64,000 nucleotides of DNA from contig NZ_LS974202.1 in NCBI RefSeq assembly GCF_900157305.1, positions 2,666,001-2,730,000 of the forward strand, written 5' to 3'. The position numbers and the translations under genes were made by a program. This document shows, piece after piece, positions 1 to 50,021 of the stretch; the stretch's first letter is position 1; each line of letters begins with the position of its first letter. The notes under the pieces were generated by a model. That model was not told the origin of the DNA. It saw nothing but the letters and a program-made list of their open reading frames with translations, and searched no databases. The stretch comes from Mesotoga infera (lineage in GTDB: Bacteria > Thermotogota > Thermotogae > Petrotogales > Kosmotogaceae).

Positions 1-186
1 AAGCGATGGAAGATTGAGAGGCTGTTCCAGAAAATGAAAGAGGTGTTCAGAGTGGAGATTCCCAGAAAAGGTGGCAGAGATGATCTCTTGTCCAGAGTAA
101 CGGCACTATTTCTAACGGTTGTTACTCTTGCCTTCTCCAAGTTCGTGCTCAACTATCCTATTCTGGATTACCTCAATTGTTGCTGA
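1..186 (+). CDS. IS4-type transposase, C-terminal end (partial)
   Basis: This is an open frame that enters from the left edge and stops at a TGA ending at 186, so only the last 61 residues are visible. Near its start R-WKI-E-RLFQKM-K fits the R(3)E(6)K part of the Y-(2)R-(3)E-(6)K signature of IS4-family DDE transposases; the E would be the third catalytic acid. The rest is a hydrophobic tail typical of these C-termini. No start codon is inside the window. The IS end and its inverted repeat cannot be recognised because the other end is outside. Whether the element is intact cannot be judged. Confidence 0.65.
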   Translation, partial: KRWKIERLFQKMKEVFRVEIPRKGGRDDLLSRVTALFLTVVTLAFSKFVLNYPILDYLNCC

Positions 187-43155: not shown

Positions 43156-44409
43156 TTATAAATACCTGTCGGTAAAAGCATTTGCGGCCGACACAAAGGC
43201 CTTGGAAGGCATTCTTACTATGCCGGCGCCAACTTGTCCCTTGCCGGCTTCGCGATGGGCGGCTCCGGTGTCGAGAACAGGTGTGATACCGGTCTCCACA
43301 ACTTTTATTAGATCTATACCCGTTGGCGTTCCCCTAAAATTGAGAGAGGGAATCGTGAAGTTCCTGTTCTCACCAAGGCAGATCTCATACATCTCTCTTG
43401 TGTAGTTGATAGCATCCTGAGGCGTACCGCCGACGAACTGGACGATAGCGGGCGCGGCCGCCAGTGCGAACCCCCCGACTCCGTAGGTTTCCATTATCGC
43501 GCTGTCACCTATATCCCTGTTTACGTCGGCCCTGGTGAATCCCGGGAAAAGCAAAACGTCAGGTAGAGCTGCCTGGCAGGTGAACCATCGCCTTTCTAGA
43601 CCGGCTATTTGTATCCCGAAATCCGTTCCGTTTCTCGCCATAACGGTTACCATCGTAGAACCCTCGACGAAACCGATGCTGTCCAGCGAAACCTTGGCTG
43701 CAGCCATACCGGGATTGAGAAAGAAATGATCGTTGCCGGCCATGAAACGCATCACTTTCGCCAGAGAGGTGTTGTCGGTGGAGGATTCCACAAGATAAGG
43801 CGCGAGCGTTCGGATTAACAAGGAGGTAGCAGCCCGGTTTCTGTTATGAAGTTCGTCGCCCATATGAAGGGCCTGGGAGATAAGGCTTTTAAGATTGATT
43901 CCTCCGTTATCATTCACATAATGTTCCACGCCTGCCTTTAGCACGGGGAAAAGGATCTCTCTCATCCAGCGAAGCCTTTCGATTACCTCTTCGTCAAAGG
44001 CGCCCATTCTGAGGACTTTTCCCAGTCCTTCATTGAGGGTAGCGTAGCTCCTTTTGCCGCTTGAGCGGTCCTCTACAATCCATACGGGCATTCCGGGTGA
44101 TATTATTCCCGCCATCGGTCCAACTGCACCGTGATGGTGACATGGATCGAACACCACATTGTTTTCTTTCAAGTACTCTGCGGCCTTTTGGGGTGTGTCT
44201 GCCCAGCCTTCGTAGATGACTGCTCCTATCATGGCCCCCATCATAGGCCCCGACATCCTTTCCAGTTCTATCGGCGGTCCGGCATGTAGTATGGTGTTCT
44301 TCTCTATTCCGGGAATCACTTCACAGGCTATACCGAGATCCACTATATGTGGCTCGGCTTTTTGGAGTCTTTCAAATGCTATCTGATTGGCCTTTTCGAT
44401 ATCAAACAA
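43156..44409 (-). CDS. DUF1116 protein, AllG-like subunit
   Basis: About 417 residues of the DUF1116 family (E. coli YlbE/AllG), recognised by GPPIELERMSGPMMGA near residue 45, HHHGAVGPMAGI and the later MARNGTDFGIQIAG. In E. coli this protein is reported to be one subunit of the oxamate carbamoyltransferase formed with FdrA and YlbF. The frame begins at GTG 44418, but AGAGG lies 8 bases before a TTG at 44409, overlapping the stop of the small FdrA-C gene. The active chemistry here is inferred only from the neighbours. Confidence 0.85.
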   Translation of the reverse strand: MFDIEKANQIAFERLQKAEPHIVDLGIACEVIPGIEKNTILHAGPPIELERMSGPMMGAMIGAVIYEGWADTPQKAAEYLKENNVVFDPCHHHGAVGPMAGIISPGMPVWIVEDRSSGKRSYATLNEGLGKVLRMGAFDEEVIERLRWMREILFPVLKAGVEHYVNDNGGINLKSLISQALHMGDELHNRNRAATSLLIRTLAPYLVESSTDNTSLAKVMRFMAGNDHFFLNPGMAAAKVSLDSIGFVEGSTMVTVMARNGTDFGIQIAGLERRWFTCQAALPDVLLFPGFTRADVNRDIGDSAIMETYGVGGFALAAAPAIVQFVGGTPQDAINYTREMYEICLGENRNFTIPSLNFRGTPTGIDLIKVVETGITPVLDTGAAHREAGKGQVGAGIVRMPSKAFVSAANAFTDRYL

Positions 44410-44581
44410 AGTTACCACCTCTCAGCTTCTTCAATTTCCCGAGCAGTTCTTTGTCGGCCAATGGAGGCTTCCAATCGACCCAGACGGTAGGTACTTCACG
44501 GGCTTTAAGATCGATATAGAATTGCTCAATTCCAATGTTTATTACTTTTGGAACGTCTTTCAGCAGTTTTTTCAGACTCAT
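44402..44581 (-). CDS. Small protein equal to the C-terminal piece of FdrA
   Basis: A 59-residue reading frame below usual ORF-length cut-offs. Its ATG overlaps the fdrA stop as ATGA and its end overlaps the DUF1116 start. The sequence (VPKVINIGIEQFYIDL, VPTVWVDWKPP, LLGKLKKLR) matches in pattern the last 50 residues of E. coli FdrA as I recall them (VAVINIGLRSF, QWSPVAGG, LARLLERLQ). The upstream FdrA lacks this part. It is therefore likely a genuine separately translated subunit of the complex. Confidence 0.75.
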   Translation of the reverse strand: MSLKKLLKDVPKVINIGIEQFYIDLKAREVPTVWVDWKPPLADKELLGKLKKLRGGNFV

Positions 44582-46113
44582 TTCCGTTCTCTCCCCTCCG
44601 TAGCCGCCGCTGCGAAAATCGCCGCTTTCGCGTTGCTTTCGAATACATGAACGCCGGCTTCCTTAAGAATTCCGGTCTGTCTCTCCAGATTCTGGGGGTC
44701 GCCCGACGTTCCACATACGTAGGCGACGTAAAGAGGTCCTTTCTTCCTCTCAAGGCTTTTTATCGCACTTACCACATCGGCTGAAGGATCCGGTGCGCTG
44801 CCGTAGCCGAGAACAACATCGAAGAGAACTACCGCGACTGAAGGATCCTCTGATTGTATCCTGAGCTGCCCGGATCGGAAGGAAGGATCGATCATAGGGT
44901 GGAGTTTACCCTGAGTGAATTCATCTTCACCGTAGTCTATGAAACTGTTTTTAATAGGCTTAAGACTATCGGGTAACTTCATTCCGATCTCTAGCGGGTT
45001 ATTTCCGTAAACCGATTCGAGATATCTCCTGGCTATGCTTTCGGCCTCATAGCAGAGAGTACCGCCCGTGAAGAGACCTCGCAGGAACCGTCCGGAAGCT
45101 TCGCTCTTCCGTCCCAGGACTTCGATTTTCAAATACTCATTTATCAAATCCTCTCTGGCTTTTATCACGTCTTTTCCACCCAGGAGAGCCGCCGCTAGAG
45201 TTGCGCACTCCTCAAGACCGGTAGCGTATTTCAACTTTGGTTCATCCTCGCGTGGTGATTCTCCCATGAAACACGTAACCGAAGGCTTTCCGCTGCTTCT
45301 CAGTGCCTGGACAATCTTCTCCCTCACTTCGGGCGAGGGTGGTTTGCTTATAAACACCATTACGGAGATTTCGGGATCGTTCGCTAGAGCCTCTACCGCA
45401 GTCAGCGAAGAGATACCGCCCACGGCCGACTTAATATCTCTGCCACCCGTTCCTAGACCATGTTTCACACCTATTCCACGCCTGGCAAGCTGGACCATTA
45501 CTTCCTGCAATCCCGTACCGGATGCAGAGACTATACCGACCGGGCCCACCGGGCAGACATTGGAGAAGCCCAGCCCTTGACCGTTTATGACCACTGTTCC
45601 GCAATCCGGACCCATCACTATCAGTTCGTTCCGGGAGGCGTACCTCTTCAGCTCGATCTCCTCTTCCAGCGAAACATTGTCGGAGTAGAGCATTACATTC
45701 AAACCTCTCTTCAGGGCTTTCATCGCTTCTGCCGCAGCGTATCTTCCTGGCAGGGAAATCAGTGCGACATTGGCTCCCGGAAGCACAGATAGCGCTCCTT
45801 CTAGTGTCTTGGGCGTATATTCGCCAGGCTCTTCACTATCCTTCCACGGCAGCGAGGAGAGATAGGATCTGGCCATCTCCATAAGTCTGTCGTACAGCTT
45901 TCCAGGACAGTCAATTCCAATTATCAGATCGTCCGGAGAGGCATTTACACTCTCCACCTCGAAACCCGCGGCTTTCATGACATGCAAATTCGCCTCCGTC
46001 GCCATATTCAACGTGGCTTCGGTAACGCCTTCGATCTTCTTAAGCTCCTTTGCCACGAGCATGAGAGTCACACTGTCGTAATATTCACCCTTAATAATCT
46101 CTACTCTTTTCAA
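44578..46113 (-). CDS. fdrA: FdrA family protein, AllF-like
   Basis: A 511-residue FdrA protein with a succinyl-CoA-synthetase-like fold. Visible are the CoA-binding-like part LISLPGRYAAAEAMKAL, VMGPDCGTVVINGQG, GIVSASGTGLQEVMVQL, GLGTGGRDI and the ligase part FTGGTLCYEAE with HPMIDPSFR. In E. coli FdrA is reported as a subunit of oxamate carbamoyltransferase in allantoin breakdown. The frame starts at ATG 46128, but GGAGG lies 8 bases before the TTG at 46113; the resulting start MKRVEIIKGEYYDSV aligns with the E. coli N-terminus. The C-terminal 50 residues are encoded separately by the next gene. Confidence 0.9.
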   Translation of the reverse strand: MKRVEIIKGEYYDSVTLMLVAKELKKIEGVTEATLNMATEANLHVMKAAGFEVESVNASPDDLIIGIDCPGKLYDRLMEMARSYLSSLPWKDSEEPGEYTPKTLEGALSVLPGANVALISLPGRYAAAEAMKALKRGLNVMLYSDNVSLEEEIELKRYASRNELIVMGPDCGTVVINGQGLGFSNVCPVGPVGIVSASGTGLQEVMVQLARRGIGVKHGLGTGGRDIKSAVGGISSLTAVEALANDPEISVMVFISKPPSPEVREKIVQALRSSGKPSVTCFMGESPREDEPKLKYATGLEECATLAAALLGGKDVIKAREDLINEYLKIEVLGRKSEASGRFLRGLFTGGTLCYEAESIARRYLESVYGNNPLEIGMKLPDSLKPIKNSFIDYGEDEFTQGKLHPMIDPSFRSGQLRIQSEDPSVAVVLFDVVLGYGSAPDPSADVVSAIKSLERKKGPLYVAYVCGTSGDPQNLERQTGILKEAGVHVFESNAKAAIFAAAATEGRERK

Positions 46114-46150
46114 GAGATCGACCTCCATTCTCTCATCTATCTACTCTCAC

Positions 46151-46843
46151 TCACGAAATCCCTTCAAGTCCAGTAGAAAACCCTGCGAGCCAGGCCCTGC
46201 CGGAGAGATGCCCCCATTGGAGAATACTCCCGACCGCCGATAGGAACTCAGACGCTGAACTGCCAACTAGTGCCTGGCAGAGTTTATAGCCTCTCTTCCA
46301 GATATATCCATTCAAAGCATCTCTTATCATCTGAGTTGAAAACCAAGTCGTTCCGTTTTTCTCCAGCGCCTTAAAAAACCGTTCGCCCACCTCTACCCCC
46401 GTCCATCTGAATGCCGTTATAAGGCCGGTGACAAAGTCGTCGCCAGCAGGTGTCGTTCCCGGACCGAGGCCTATCATTCTTTCGGGATTCTCCAGCTGAT
46501 CCAGCAAACACTCGAACCGGTCATCAAGCAAAAAACGTCTCCACTCACTCCAGAGAGGTTGCCAGAGGAGATTGGCAGGCTCCGAAACTGGATTGATCGA
46601 AGGGTCAAAACCCACACTGGAAAGTTCCTGAGAGACTCTTACGCTTTCCCCGGTGCGCAAAACAGGAAGCGCCTCTATGAGAGATGCTCTTGGCAGATAA
46701 TCCACTTCCCTGGTGATCAGAGAATACCTCCTGTTATCATCTCCTTCAAAATTGATAACCTTAGAATAGATGCTGTGGACCTTCACGACTGACTCAATTT
46801 TCTGCCAATCGGAACTTCGTTCAAATGGGTACAGAGTGATCAT
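46151..46843 (-). CDS. DUF2877 protein, AllH-like subunit
   Basis: The 230-residue protein has the DUF2877 hallmark GLGPGTTPAGDDFVTG and the late HLSGRAWLAGF, as in E. coli YlbF/AllH. In E. coli this is the third subunit of the proposed oxamate carbamoyltransferase. The start ATGA overlaps the stop of the CoA-transferase gene, with GAGGGG 5 bases upstream. It is 37 bases ahead of fdrA. Which subunit holds the active site is not settled to my knowledge. Confidence 0.87.
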   Translation of the reverse strand: MITLYPFERSSDWQKIESVVKVHSIYSKVINFEGDDNRRYSLITREVDYLPRASLIEALPVLRTGESVRVSQELSSVGFDPSINPVSEPANLLWQPLWSEWRRFLLDDRFECLLDQLENPERMIGLGPGTTPAGDDFVTGLITAFRWTGVEVGERFFKALEKNGTTWFSTQMIRDALNGYIWKRGYKLCQALVGSSASEFLSAVGSILQWGHLSGRAWLAGFSTGLEGIS

Positions 46844-48030
46844 ATGACCCCTCTTTTTTTATACTCCTCTAACTCTTGGAGACTCAAACCAAGTAGTTCC
46901 TGATATATTTCTCCATTGTTTTCTCCAAGCGATGGAGCCGGTCCACAGATTCCCGCTGGCGTTGCCGAGAACTTTATGGGTACGCCGGGCATCTTTACGT
47001 TGAACCCCTTCTGGGGAACGTCCACGATCATTTCACGCGCAAGTACTTGTGGATCGGTGAAGAGATCAGCGATGTTGTTTATACGACCGGACGGTATATC
47101 GAGTTCCTGGAAGAGATCGAGCCAATCTCTGGTGGTTTTCCCAGAAAGAGTGACAGAGATTATCTTTGTGAGTTCGATTATATTTCTCACACGCTCTGGA
47201 TTGGTGGAAAACCTCGGATCTTCGCACAACTCCGGCCGCTCTATCGCCATGCAGAATTTTTGCCATATACTGTCGTTTCCGATTGCGATGTTTATCTGAC
47301 CATCAAGTGTCGCGAACGAAGCGAAGGGTGCGATCGACGGATGACTATTGCCGATAGGTTCTGGTATCCTTCCAGTTGCCGAAAACCTCGCGATAGCATT
47401 CTCGAGAACGGCAACCATGCTGTCCAGCATCGCGACATCCACCATCTGTCCTTCACCATTTTTTTGCCTGTTGTGGAGAGCCGCTAGAATACCGATACAG
47501 GCGAAGGTTCCACAAAATATGTCGGCAATAGAACTCCCGGTCTTCGTAGGGTGGTCTCTATCCGGACCCGTTATGCTCATTATTCCGCTCAATCCCTGTA
47601 TTATCAGATCGTAAGCCGTCCTCTGACTCATCGGTCCGGAATGTCCAAAACCTGATAATGCCGTGTATATAAGCGAAGAGTTAAGCTCCTTGAGTCTTTC
47701 GTAGGAAAACCCGAGCTTCTTCATCACGCCTGGTTTGAAATTCTCCACCAACACATCGGCCTTTTCAACGAGTCGTTTGAAGAGCACCTTCCCCTCGGGA
47801 GCTTTCAGGTTCAACGTTATACTCTTCTTTCCCCTGTTGATACTCATGAAATATGCGCTTTCACCGTTTATCATGGGACTGAAAGTGCGGGAATCGTCTC
47901 CGCCGTCTGGCCGTTCGACCTTCACCACGGCCGCTCCCATATCGCAGAGCAACATCGTGCAAAATGGCCCCGCGAGGACTCTGGTTAGGTCGAGTACGAA
48001 CAATCCTTCGAGTGGCTTGGGCAATTTCAT
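46840..48030 (-). CDS. Class III (CaiB/BaiF) CoA-transferase
   Basis: The 396-residue protein moves CoA between carboxylic acids through an aspartyl thioester. It begins with PLEGLFVLDLTRVLAGP, then VVKVERPDGGDD, SINRGKKSITLNLK, VENFKPGVMKKLG and SGFGHSGPMSQR, all typical. GSSIADIFCG holds the likely catalytic Asp. The start overlaps the nitrilase stop by 4 bases. Its presence suggests that a carboxylic acid from ring breakdown, such as an oxalate- or oxamate-like acid, is activated with CoA. Substrates cannot be read from sequence. Confidence 0.9.
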   Translation of the reverse strand: MKLPKPLEGLFVLDLTRVLAGPFCTMLLCDMGAAVVKVERPDGGDDSRTFSPMINGESAYFMSINRGKKSITLNLKAPEGKVLFKRLVEKADVLVENFKPGVMKKLGFSYERLKELNSSLIYTALSGFGHSGPMSQRTAYDLIIQGLSGIMSITGPDRDHPTKTGSSIADIFCGTFACIGILAALHNRQKNGEGQMVDVAMLDSMVAVLENAIARFSATGRIPEPIGNSHPSIAPFASFATLDGQINIAIGNDSIWQKFCMAIERPELCEDPRFSTNPERVRNIIELTKIISVTLSGKTTRDWLDLFQELDIPSGRINNIADLFTDPQVLAREMIVDVPQKGFNVKMPGVPIKFSATPAGICGPAPSLGENNGEIYQELLGLSLQELEEYKKRGVI

Positions 48031-48917
48031 CTCCTCCTGAATGGAATGCGCTTTGCCGGTTCGAAGGCTGATTTACCCTCTTCGAGAATTCCGGTGTAGG
48101 CCTCTGTGTTCCTGTCTTGAATATGGTCGAATATCTGGTCTCTGTTCGAGCCGGGAATGATCTTTTTTATTGGATCGGGGTCCAGTTCGGCATGGATGAA
48201 CTCGTCACAACCCCCGGCCTGAGAGAGTTTCATACCTGAAGGGTGAACGATCATCGAGCAGCCGAAGAAATATGCCCCGCTGGCATCTCTTCCGACAGAA
48301 TTGGTACCTATCCAGTAAACGTGATTATCGTAGGCACGCGCCCTGTTGGTAAGTTCCCACTGATCGAACGTTCGCAGAAAAGCCGATGGTCTGCATATTA
48401 TCTCAGCTCCCTTCAGGGTCGTAATTCTCGCAAGTTCGGGGAAATCTCCGTCATAACAGATCACCATACCTATGTTGCCTATCGGAGTCTCAACTGAGAA
48501 GGGCTCCCTGCCTGGTGTGGTCCATCCGCCTGCCTCCAGTCGTTCCGATGGAAAGGGATGGGTCTTTCTATAAACACCCAGCAGACCATCTGGGCCTATC
48601 AGTGCGGCGCTGTTATAGATAACCGGAAAGACCTCACCCCTCTCGTAAGTTGGAAAGCATATATACATATCCAGTTCACTGGCCCATTGAACGGCCCTAT
48701 CAATTATCGGACCGGGAATTGTGGAAACTGCCTTCCAGAGGTCTTTGACACCACCAATAGGAGTAAACCCGGTAGTGAAACTCTCAGGTAGTACCACCAG
48801 ATTTGCGTTGGAGAACTCTTTGGTCTTCGTTATCCAGTAATGGGCTATCGAAAGGTTCTTTTCGACGTTCATCGGTTCGATTGCAAACTGTACGGCAGAA
48901 ACAACGATTCTCTCCAT
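48027..48917 (-). CDS. Nitrilase-family carbon-nitrogen hydrolase
   Basis: The 296-residue hydrolase has the Glu-Lys-Cys triad of the nitrilase superfamily: Glu in LPESFTTGF, Lys in YRKTHPF and Cys in MVICYDGDFPE. A second Glu occurs in AEL- and the C-terminal half fits amidases such as N-carbamoyl amino acid hydrolase or beta-ureidopropionase. It likely splits a linear amide or carbamoyl group and would fit ureide breakdown. The frame runs to 48956, but AAGGAG lies 7 bases before the ATG at 48917. It is the first gene of the ten-gene operon. Confidence 0.87.
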   Translation of the reverse strand: MERIVVSAVQFAIEPMNVEKNLSIAHYWITKTKEFSNANLVVLPESFTTGFTPIGGVKDLWKAVSTIPGPIIDRAVQWASELDMYICFPTYERGEVFPVIYNSAALIGPDGLLGVYRKTHPFPSERLEAGGWTTPGREPFSVETPIGNIGMVICYDGDFPELARITTLKGAEIICRPSAFLRTFDQWELTNRARAYDNHVYWIGTNSVGRDASGAYFFGCSMIVHPSGMKLSQAGGCDEFIHAELDPDPIKKIIPGSNRDQIFDHIQDRNTEAYTGILEEGKSAFEPAKRIPFRRR

Positions 48918-49278
48918 ATCTACTCCTTTTTCACAAAGAAGTGGGGATATGCCCAATCTATCACATTTTTATCCAATTTAGGAATAATGGAGAGCAGTGT
49001 GTTTGGTGGTTTTTGACTTTGAGAATTGAACCATGTTGAAGAGTGGCAAGTACTCTATAAATGGACTCCTTTTGGTCGGTATCTCAAAAGACCGGAAGCT
49101 TTTCAAGGTGTCAATCGAGTATGGATAAGAGGTATGAGAGCAGGCAAATAAGCCAAATTATTGAGTAATGAGTTCTTATATATTGCTTAAAACTCTTTTC
49201 TATTGCGGCCTTTAATTTTCTCAATTCTCTCCGTAACAGATTTTTTACATTTATACCCGACAAAATACCTCTTATATA
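48918..49278. other. Intergenic region upstream of the catabolic operon
   Basis: About 360 bases between the nitrilase gene (minus) and the small-RNA promoter (plus). The part next to the nitrilase must hold the operon promoter; a TTGGAT followed 18 bases later by GCATAT is a weak candidate, near the partial dyad GGGGATATGCCC (48945-48956). A 31-codon frame at 49033-49128 has protein-like composition but no ribosome site. AT-rich stretches follow. No confident gene is visible. Confidence 0.5.
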
Positions 49279-49307
49279 TTGACAAAAACGAGTAAATTGG
49301 GTAGAAT
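49279..49307 (+). promoter_or_regulatory. Promoter of an orphan small RNA
   Basis: Perfect TTGACA (49279-49284), 17-base spacer, TAGAAT (49302-49307). No reading frame with a ribosome site follows before the terminator at 49459-49481. Confidence 0.8.
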
Positions 49308-49312
49308 TATAT

Positions 49313-49481
49313 CAAGAAGAACGAGAAGACAGTAAGAACCCTTGCTACCCCCAAGAGTAAAAGGTCACTGAAAAGACAGGAGATAGCAAAAAGAACCCTA
49401 GTCATCAACGTGCATGGTCAGGCATGTTGAAACCCCCCTAGAAAATCCCGATTATTGAGCCGCCGGATGGCGGCTTTTTTT
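49313..49481 (+). ncRNA. Candidate small RNA of about 170 bases
   Basis: A consensus promoter and a strong terminator enclose about 170 bases without a gene. Inside, CAACGTGC pairs with GCATGTTG (49406-49429, one G-U pair, 8-base loop), TTGCTA can pair with TAGCAA (49342-49347 and 49384-49389), and the 9-base AAGAACCCT is repeated at 49334 and 49391. Two unpaired C runs (49348-49352 and 49433-49438) could bind G-rich ribosome sites, as C-rich loops do in some Gram-positive small RNAs. It does not match the signal recognition particle RNA or 6S RNA patterns I know. The neighbouring NUDIX gene is convergent, so this is not a leader. Confidence 0.6.
49459..49481 (+). terminator. Terminator of the small RNA
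   Basis: GCCGCC pairs with GGCGGC around GGAT, followed by seven T bases. Confidence 0.88.
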
Positions 49482-49913: not shown

Positions 49914-50021
49914 AAGATCACTCCCCCTTCAAGATGCTTTCAAAATAGATTCTCTCATGAATCCAGTCAGTACAGACAATTATAAAACCAATAGACGAAA
50001 AGACCGGAAGAAATCGGTTCT

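Follow-up and report, generated by a model that had tools for sequence, protein, structure and literature searches.

A 64,000-nt stretch of Mesotoga infera contig NZ_LS974202.1 (hereafter the window) contains a genuine small-RNA gene. The gene represents a new RNA family that belongs to a known functional kind, and each of the ten genomes examined from the genus (Mesotoga/Kosmotogaceae, Thermotogota) has a homolog. We propose that it probably encodes a free-standing, trans-acting sRNA whose C-rich boxes block AGGGGG-type ribosome sites, with a dedicated regulator and a co-regulated paralog. Sequence evidence establishes the gene borders with their promoter and terminator, the conservation of the family, the existence of a paralog, the predicted accessibility of the C boxes and the presence of hfq. 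Features of the window copy are listed in Table 1.

Table 1. Features of the sRNA locus in the 64-kb window
Feature	Position	Strand	Basis
Upstream box TTTACATTTATACCCGACAA	49244..49263	+	About 16-35 bp 5' of the -35 hexamer; invariant TTTAC/CCGAYAA columns, 12 loci
Sigma-70-type promoter TTGACA-17-TAGAAT	49279..49307	+	-35 TTGACA at 49279-49284, -10 TAGAAT at 49302-49307, 17-nt spacer; hexamers kept at 12/12 loci
Predicted sRNA, about 168 nt	49314..49481	+	Covariance-model match and alignment; start placed about 7 nt past the -10
A-rich, ARN-type 5' tail AAGAAGAACGAGAAGACAG	49314..49333	+	Sequence; candidate Hfq distal-face site, putative binding
C-rich box 1 AAGAACCCTTGCTACCCCC	49334..49352	+	AACC-YTTGC-ACCCC kept in nearly all copies; C5 run at 49348-49352
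Second AAGAACCCT (direct repeat)	49391..49399	+	One of exactly two occurrences in the window (49334 and 49391); exclusive to the window paralog type
Stem-loop 2, shortened; hairpin TCAACGTGC/GCATGTTGA	49405..49430	+	Helix 97.7% paired across the family
C-rich box 3 GTTGAAACCCCCCTAGAAAATCCCGATT	49426..49453	+	Most strongly conserved element of the RNA; column identity averages 95% across 30 columns; C6 run at 49433-49438
Intrinsic terminator, GC stem and T7	49457..49481	+	Stem 49457-49476, T7 49475-49481; 7 stem pairs unchanged across 11 copies

A genus-wide small-RNA gene

An earlier note, made from the window alone, described an orphan sRNA with a consensus promoter, a GC hairpin followed by seven T residues and no gene in between. 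The promoter and the hairpin lie where it placed them, and the intervening sequence of about 168 nt holds no credible gene. Pattern matches of this kind are weak evidence when taken alone, since they are not clearly above shuffled sequence: 7 kb contained 14 promoter-like sites (9.4 expected from shuffled sequence) and 5 terminator-like sites (6.7 expected). A strict promoter pattern, TTGACA-16..18-TAnnWT, matched four times in the window. Two of these matches lie directly 5' of tRNA genes (33073; 910, minus strand), one is the sRNA locus itself, and one falls within a gene on the opposite strand.

Conservation in all ten genomes takes the locus beyond chance pattern matches. A DNA search of 61 related genomes matched all ten members of the genus and no others. 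We built a covariance model from ten copies, leaving out the window copy, and this model recovered the window copy with a score of 101.5 bits (E 3.4e-23). Across 103 genomes of the class, it matched nine of the ten members of the genus strongly; in the tenth (G007), a contig edge leaves only the promoter and 5' end. The conserved block extends from the upstream box to the T-run of the terminator, and mean column identity reaches 84% across the promoter region and 85% within the transcript, compared with 55% farther upstream. Every complete copy retains the promoter, stem 2, the terminator and both C-rich boxes, so the locus passes the test set by the earlier note, which asked for a promoter, hairpins and terminator conserved in relatives.

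Outside the genus, the covariance model found no convincing homolog in the 93 other genomes of the class. Distant matches within the class (E 3e-4 to 7e-3) were rejected as 3'-terminator regions or coding sequence without a promoter, and matches in sister genera of the family (E above 0.06) look coding or unrelated. A search for the box-3 pattern over 84,980 species returned four Mesotoga/Kosmotogaceae loci, in Mesotoga sp. WOFB36, Kosmotogaceae bacterium UBA1373 (two copies) and a Kosmotogaceae MAG. Five further matches in non-Thermotogota look coding and are about as many as chance predicts, and viral contigs contained none. Scanning the locus against Rfam 15 with cmscan, at gathering and relaxed thresholds, yielded nothing above noise.

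Three of the weak matches (in G019, G027 and G029) carry AACCCCC-x3-AAAATCCCC before a terminator and were not accepted as homologs. These box-3-like sites lie at gene 3' ends in two other Thermotogota genera (L035, L037 and L038, ~1501-1637) and could be 3'-UTR-derived sRNAs or chance occurrences.

Conservation upstream of the transcript is not limited to the promoter hexamers. The spacer elements CCGA and TTGGGT are also kept in the alignment of 12 loci, and the invariant columns of the upstream box suggest that it is a probable activator or regulator site. The sequence TTTACA-N7-CCGAYAA, allowing 0-1 mismatch, occurs in the M. infera genome only at the two sRNA loci described below, and with these set aside the total number of matches in that genome was not above control. 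A near match at 2756650 was rejected as a third copy; it lies inside a coding gene. The restriction of the full box to the two sRNA loci suggests that the two copies are probably co-regulated. A separate 13-mer, AAAAGACCGGAAG, occurs at 49086-49098 and 49998-50010 and thus flanks the sRNA/NUDIX pair once on each side; its copies lie near a divergent promoter region and beside a Crp-like gene.

Paralogs and gene neighborhoods

The earlier note's description of the RNA as an orphan did not survive a search of the same genome. A second copy lies 1.04 Mb away, at G000:C1:1673748 (71% identity, E 8e-24). The window copy (type A) and this paralog (type B) occur together in M. infera (G000) and in G003. 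Seven other genomes carry a type-C copy beside degV, with the degV neighbor read from the flank only in some of them, and the copy in G007 adjoins a TrmB-like gene. A phylogenetic tree joins types A and B (support 0.94) and gives A a long branch, a topology that fits an origin of A and B by duplication in the G000/G003 lineage. The sRNA is absent from the downstream side of degV in M. infera. At this position, where its relatives carry the sRNA, the region 3' of degV (G000:C1 ~1294540-1294900, L115) contains several TGTCATCCCG-type repeats.

The family occupies four contexts: CN-hydrolase/NUDIX, beta-lactamase-like/Tex, MFS/DegV and TrmB-like. Because these neighborhoods are all different, we regard the sRNA gene as an independent cassette, in agreement with the earlier note's view that it is independent of both of its neighbors. 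A promoter followed by a terminator could also mark an attenuated leader, and we considered a cis-acting role in which the element belongs to a neighboring gene, as its leader, its attenuator or its 3' region. The changing neighbors contradict this role, as does the orientation of the downstream gene: at each of the three loci where this gene can be seen (NUDIX, Tex and DegV), it runs toward the sRNA gene. We give a cis element almost no weight. The RNA has its own promoter and intrinsic terminator and serves no neighboring gene, as expected of a free-standing sRNA.

On the upstream side of the window copy, a minus-strand operon (window 43156-48956) encodes AllG, an FdrA/AllF-like protein with a CoA-ligase fold, AllH, a CaiB-type CoA-transferase and a carbon-nitrogen hydrolase. 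This operon is an oxamate carbamoyltransferase set in unusual company; its genes were assigned by Pfam, except that the CoA-transferase was assigned by eye.

Transcript architecture and conserved C-rich boxes

The RNA is predicted to be about 168 nt long for the window copy and 175-204 nt in relatives. The family layout opens with an A-rich 5' tail, which the alignment shows to be shorter in the DegV-linked copies, and C-rich box 1. A weak stem 1 and then stem 2 come next, followed by box 3 and finally the terminator. The 8-bp hairpin of the earlier note corresponds to the 8-9 bp of stem 2, and its two C runs are the C5 of box 1 and the C6 of box 3. The direct repeat that it reported is real but limited to one paralog type. 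The second AAGAACCCT is present in G000A and G003A, and copies outside type A have the first AAGAACCCT only, with a AAAGCACCTGAG-like sequence in place of the second.

Stem-loop 2 is truncated in the window copy. The outer stem is retained, and the apical C5-6 loop is gone (36 alignment columns). The corresponding loop reads ACCACA in the M. infera paralog and contains C5 or C6 in every other complete copy. Judged from this alignment, the apical C box is lost from both genes in M. infera.

The remaining C runs are predicted to be accessible. In ensembles computed for 11 copies, the C runs of boxes 1b and 3a are 64-96% unpaired, compared with a mean of about 52% for the whole RNA. The individual predictions are 0.64-0.94 for the second C run of box 1 and 0.75-0.96 for box 3 in all copies, and the retained, scorable C5-6 apical loops are predicted to be 72-95% unpaired. 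The window RNA is moderately stable (fold z-score -1.9). The named helices form in 96% of alignment cells, a value that falls to 27-44% when the pairing partners are slid by 1-3 columns. Two-sided changes affect three helix pairs only, so covariation appears to give the helices slight to modest support and primary-sequence conservation dominates. These figures come from a model-based alignment, which replaced a plain MAFFT alignment on which RNAalifold misaligned stem 2 and found zero covariation.

Box 3 stays almost identical from copy to copy across 28-30 nt, a stretch longer than a typical seed. This would suit an sRNA that works through protein binding, as a sponge or scaffold for a CsrA/Rsm-like or other RNA-binding protein, with the boxes as protein sites. 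A CsrA/Rsm sponge is expected to hold several conserved GGA motifs in hairpin loops, and the family lacks them. In type A, TAGAAA replaces the TGGAAT of box 3, and the window copy has lost the apical arm that bears GGA. Without its hallmark motifs conserved, a CsrA sponge is an unlikely reading. What is conserved instead is C runs in predicted single strands, and we consider protein binding in general an unlikely explanation for the boxes.

We also weighed a small encoded peptide, which would make this a dual-function RNA. A short frame ends in MVRHVETPLENPDY in the window copy, in MDRHVGTPLENPDY in G003A and in MKDRHVETPWNIPI in four relatives. The start codon of this frame is missing in the B copies, and its stop is missing in B and G004. 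An extra C inside box 3 shifts the frame between types, and third codon positions are conserved as much as the others. With neither start, stop nor frame preserved, a coding function appears unlikely, and we attach very little credence to a dual-function RNA.

Finally, the length of the RNA, its presence throughout the genus and a consensus promoter resembling those of tRNA genes would be compatible with a housekeeping RNA that has gone unrecognized in this lineage, for example a divergent form of 6S RNA. A search of the M. infera genome with RF00013 found no 6S RNA, which counts in favor of this reading; the Thermotoga maritima control also gave no match. A 6S RNA would be expected to match RF00013 and to form a rod-like fold with a central bulge, and the sRNA does neither. 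It lacks a closing stem and ends in an unpaired tail on one side and a terminator on the other. The empty Rfam scan also speaks against a housekeeping RNA, as do the duplication of the gene, its relocation between loci and its absence from the sister genera searched. We therefore find a housekeeping role highly improbable.

Proposed mechanism and relation to known sRNAs

We favor the model of a trans-acting sRNA, in which transcription, Hfq binding, Shine-Dalgarno pairing and the identities of targets and regulator are inferred. The strong promoter would drive the sRNA under a dedicated regulator that recognizes the upstream TTTACA/CCGAYAA box. The exposed C-rich boxes would pair with G-rich (AGGGGG-type) Shine-Dalgarno regions of several mRNAs and block translation initiation, with Hfq probably assisting the pairing, and the second paralog in the same genome would be co-regulated. 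The genome contains an hfq gene, and the RNA has the sequence features of an Hfq-dependent sRNA: a 3' end of seven T and an ARN-rich AAGAAGAAC 5' tail. Its conserved C-rich motifs lie in predicted single strands, as this functional class would require.

Perfectly complementary ribosome sites are plentiful. Box 3 contains ACCCCCU, the exact complement of AGGGGGU, and AGGGGGT-N2-10-ATG occurs 64 times in the genome, compared with 14 times for a backward control. About 50 AGGGGGT Shine-Dalgarno sites are present in M. infera. The earlier note's suggestion that the C runs could pair with G-rich ribosome sites is plausible and agrees with the predicted accessibility of the boxes and with these sites; no conserved specific target was found among the candidates examined. 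A bias toward envelope genes was rejected: signal peptides occur in 11/36 genes with AGGGGGT and 19/58 with AGGAGGT (P=1), and in this comparison AGGGGGT-site genes show no functional bias. Omp-alpha was rejected because its AGGGGGTAGG leader is equally conserved in genera that lack the sRNA, and phosphofructokinase because its extended leader match is confined to G000/G003 and is not conserved. In the SLH-domain gene that resembles Omp-alpha, the 5' leader GAAAGGGGGTAGG-ATG (L209-L225) hardly varies across the readable genera of the family, a degree of conservation far greater than a ribosome site requires.

A bolder version of the model is possible, although we hold it only tentatively. The RNA would represent a Thermotogota-specific family of C-rich sRNAs, independent of those in Firmicutes, that globally tunes the ~50 mRNAs with AGGGGG sites under one dedicated stress or nutrient regulator, with a target set that shifts as C boxes are lost and gained. 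The apical C loop, lost jointly from both paralogs in this species, would be an example of such turnover.

We compared the Mesotoga RNA to characterized sRNAs with C-rich motifs. LhrC of Listeria is a multicopy sRNA that binds G-rich mRNA starts through three redundant C-rich motifs, located in a loop, in a single strand and in the terminator region (PMC4132741). The Mesotoga RNA resembles LhrC in the layout of its C-rich motifs and in being multicopy. It differs in phylum, in length (LhrC is 111-114 nt) and in copy number, with one or two diverged copies rather than five near-identical ones. The UCCC motif of LhrC is absent from box 1 and the apical loop, and the Rfam 15 scan did not place the RNA in the LhrC family.

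IsrR of Staphylococcus blocks Shine-Dalgarno sites and is rich in C in three regions, of which one is single-stranded and two lie in loops (PMC9410917). One of its C regions varies from four to seven C between species, its primary sequence is conserved with little covariation, and it is regulated by Fur (PMC9410917). The Mesotoga RNA shares the C-rich layout and the conserved primary sequence with little covariation, whereas its upstream box is not recognized as a Fur site. We know of no sequence relation between the two RNAs. RsaE/RoxS, FsrA and other C-rich sRNAs of Firmicutes likewise direct a single-stranded C-rich motif against Shine-Dalgarno sequences (PMC4132741, PMC9410917); the Mesotoga RNA differs from them in that it matches no Rfam family above noise. 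The best reading of these comparisons is that the sRNA may work like LhrC or IsrR, yet is unrelated to them by sequence.

Within its own phylum, transcriptomics of Thermotoga maritima identified about a dozen putative ncRNAs, without defined structures, and reported a paucity of ncRNAs (PMC3636130). The Mesotoga sRNA has no convincing homolog among the 93 genomes of the class searched outside its genus, and we found no characterized trans-acting sRNA from Thermotogota in the open-access literature searched. A duplicated, well-delimited, genus-wide sRNA gene in a mesophilic member of the Thermotogota, in a genome with hfq, offers a concrete locus at which to ask whether Shine-Dalgarno-blocking control by sRNAs occurs in this deep-branching phylum and whether C-rich sRNAs arose more than once.
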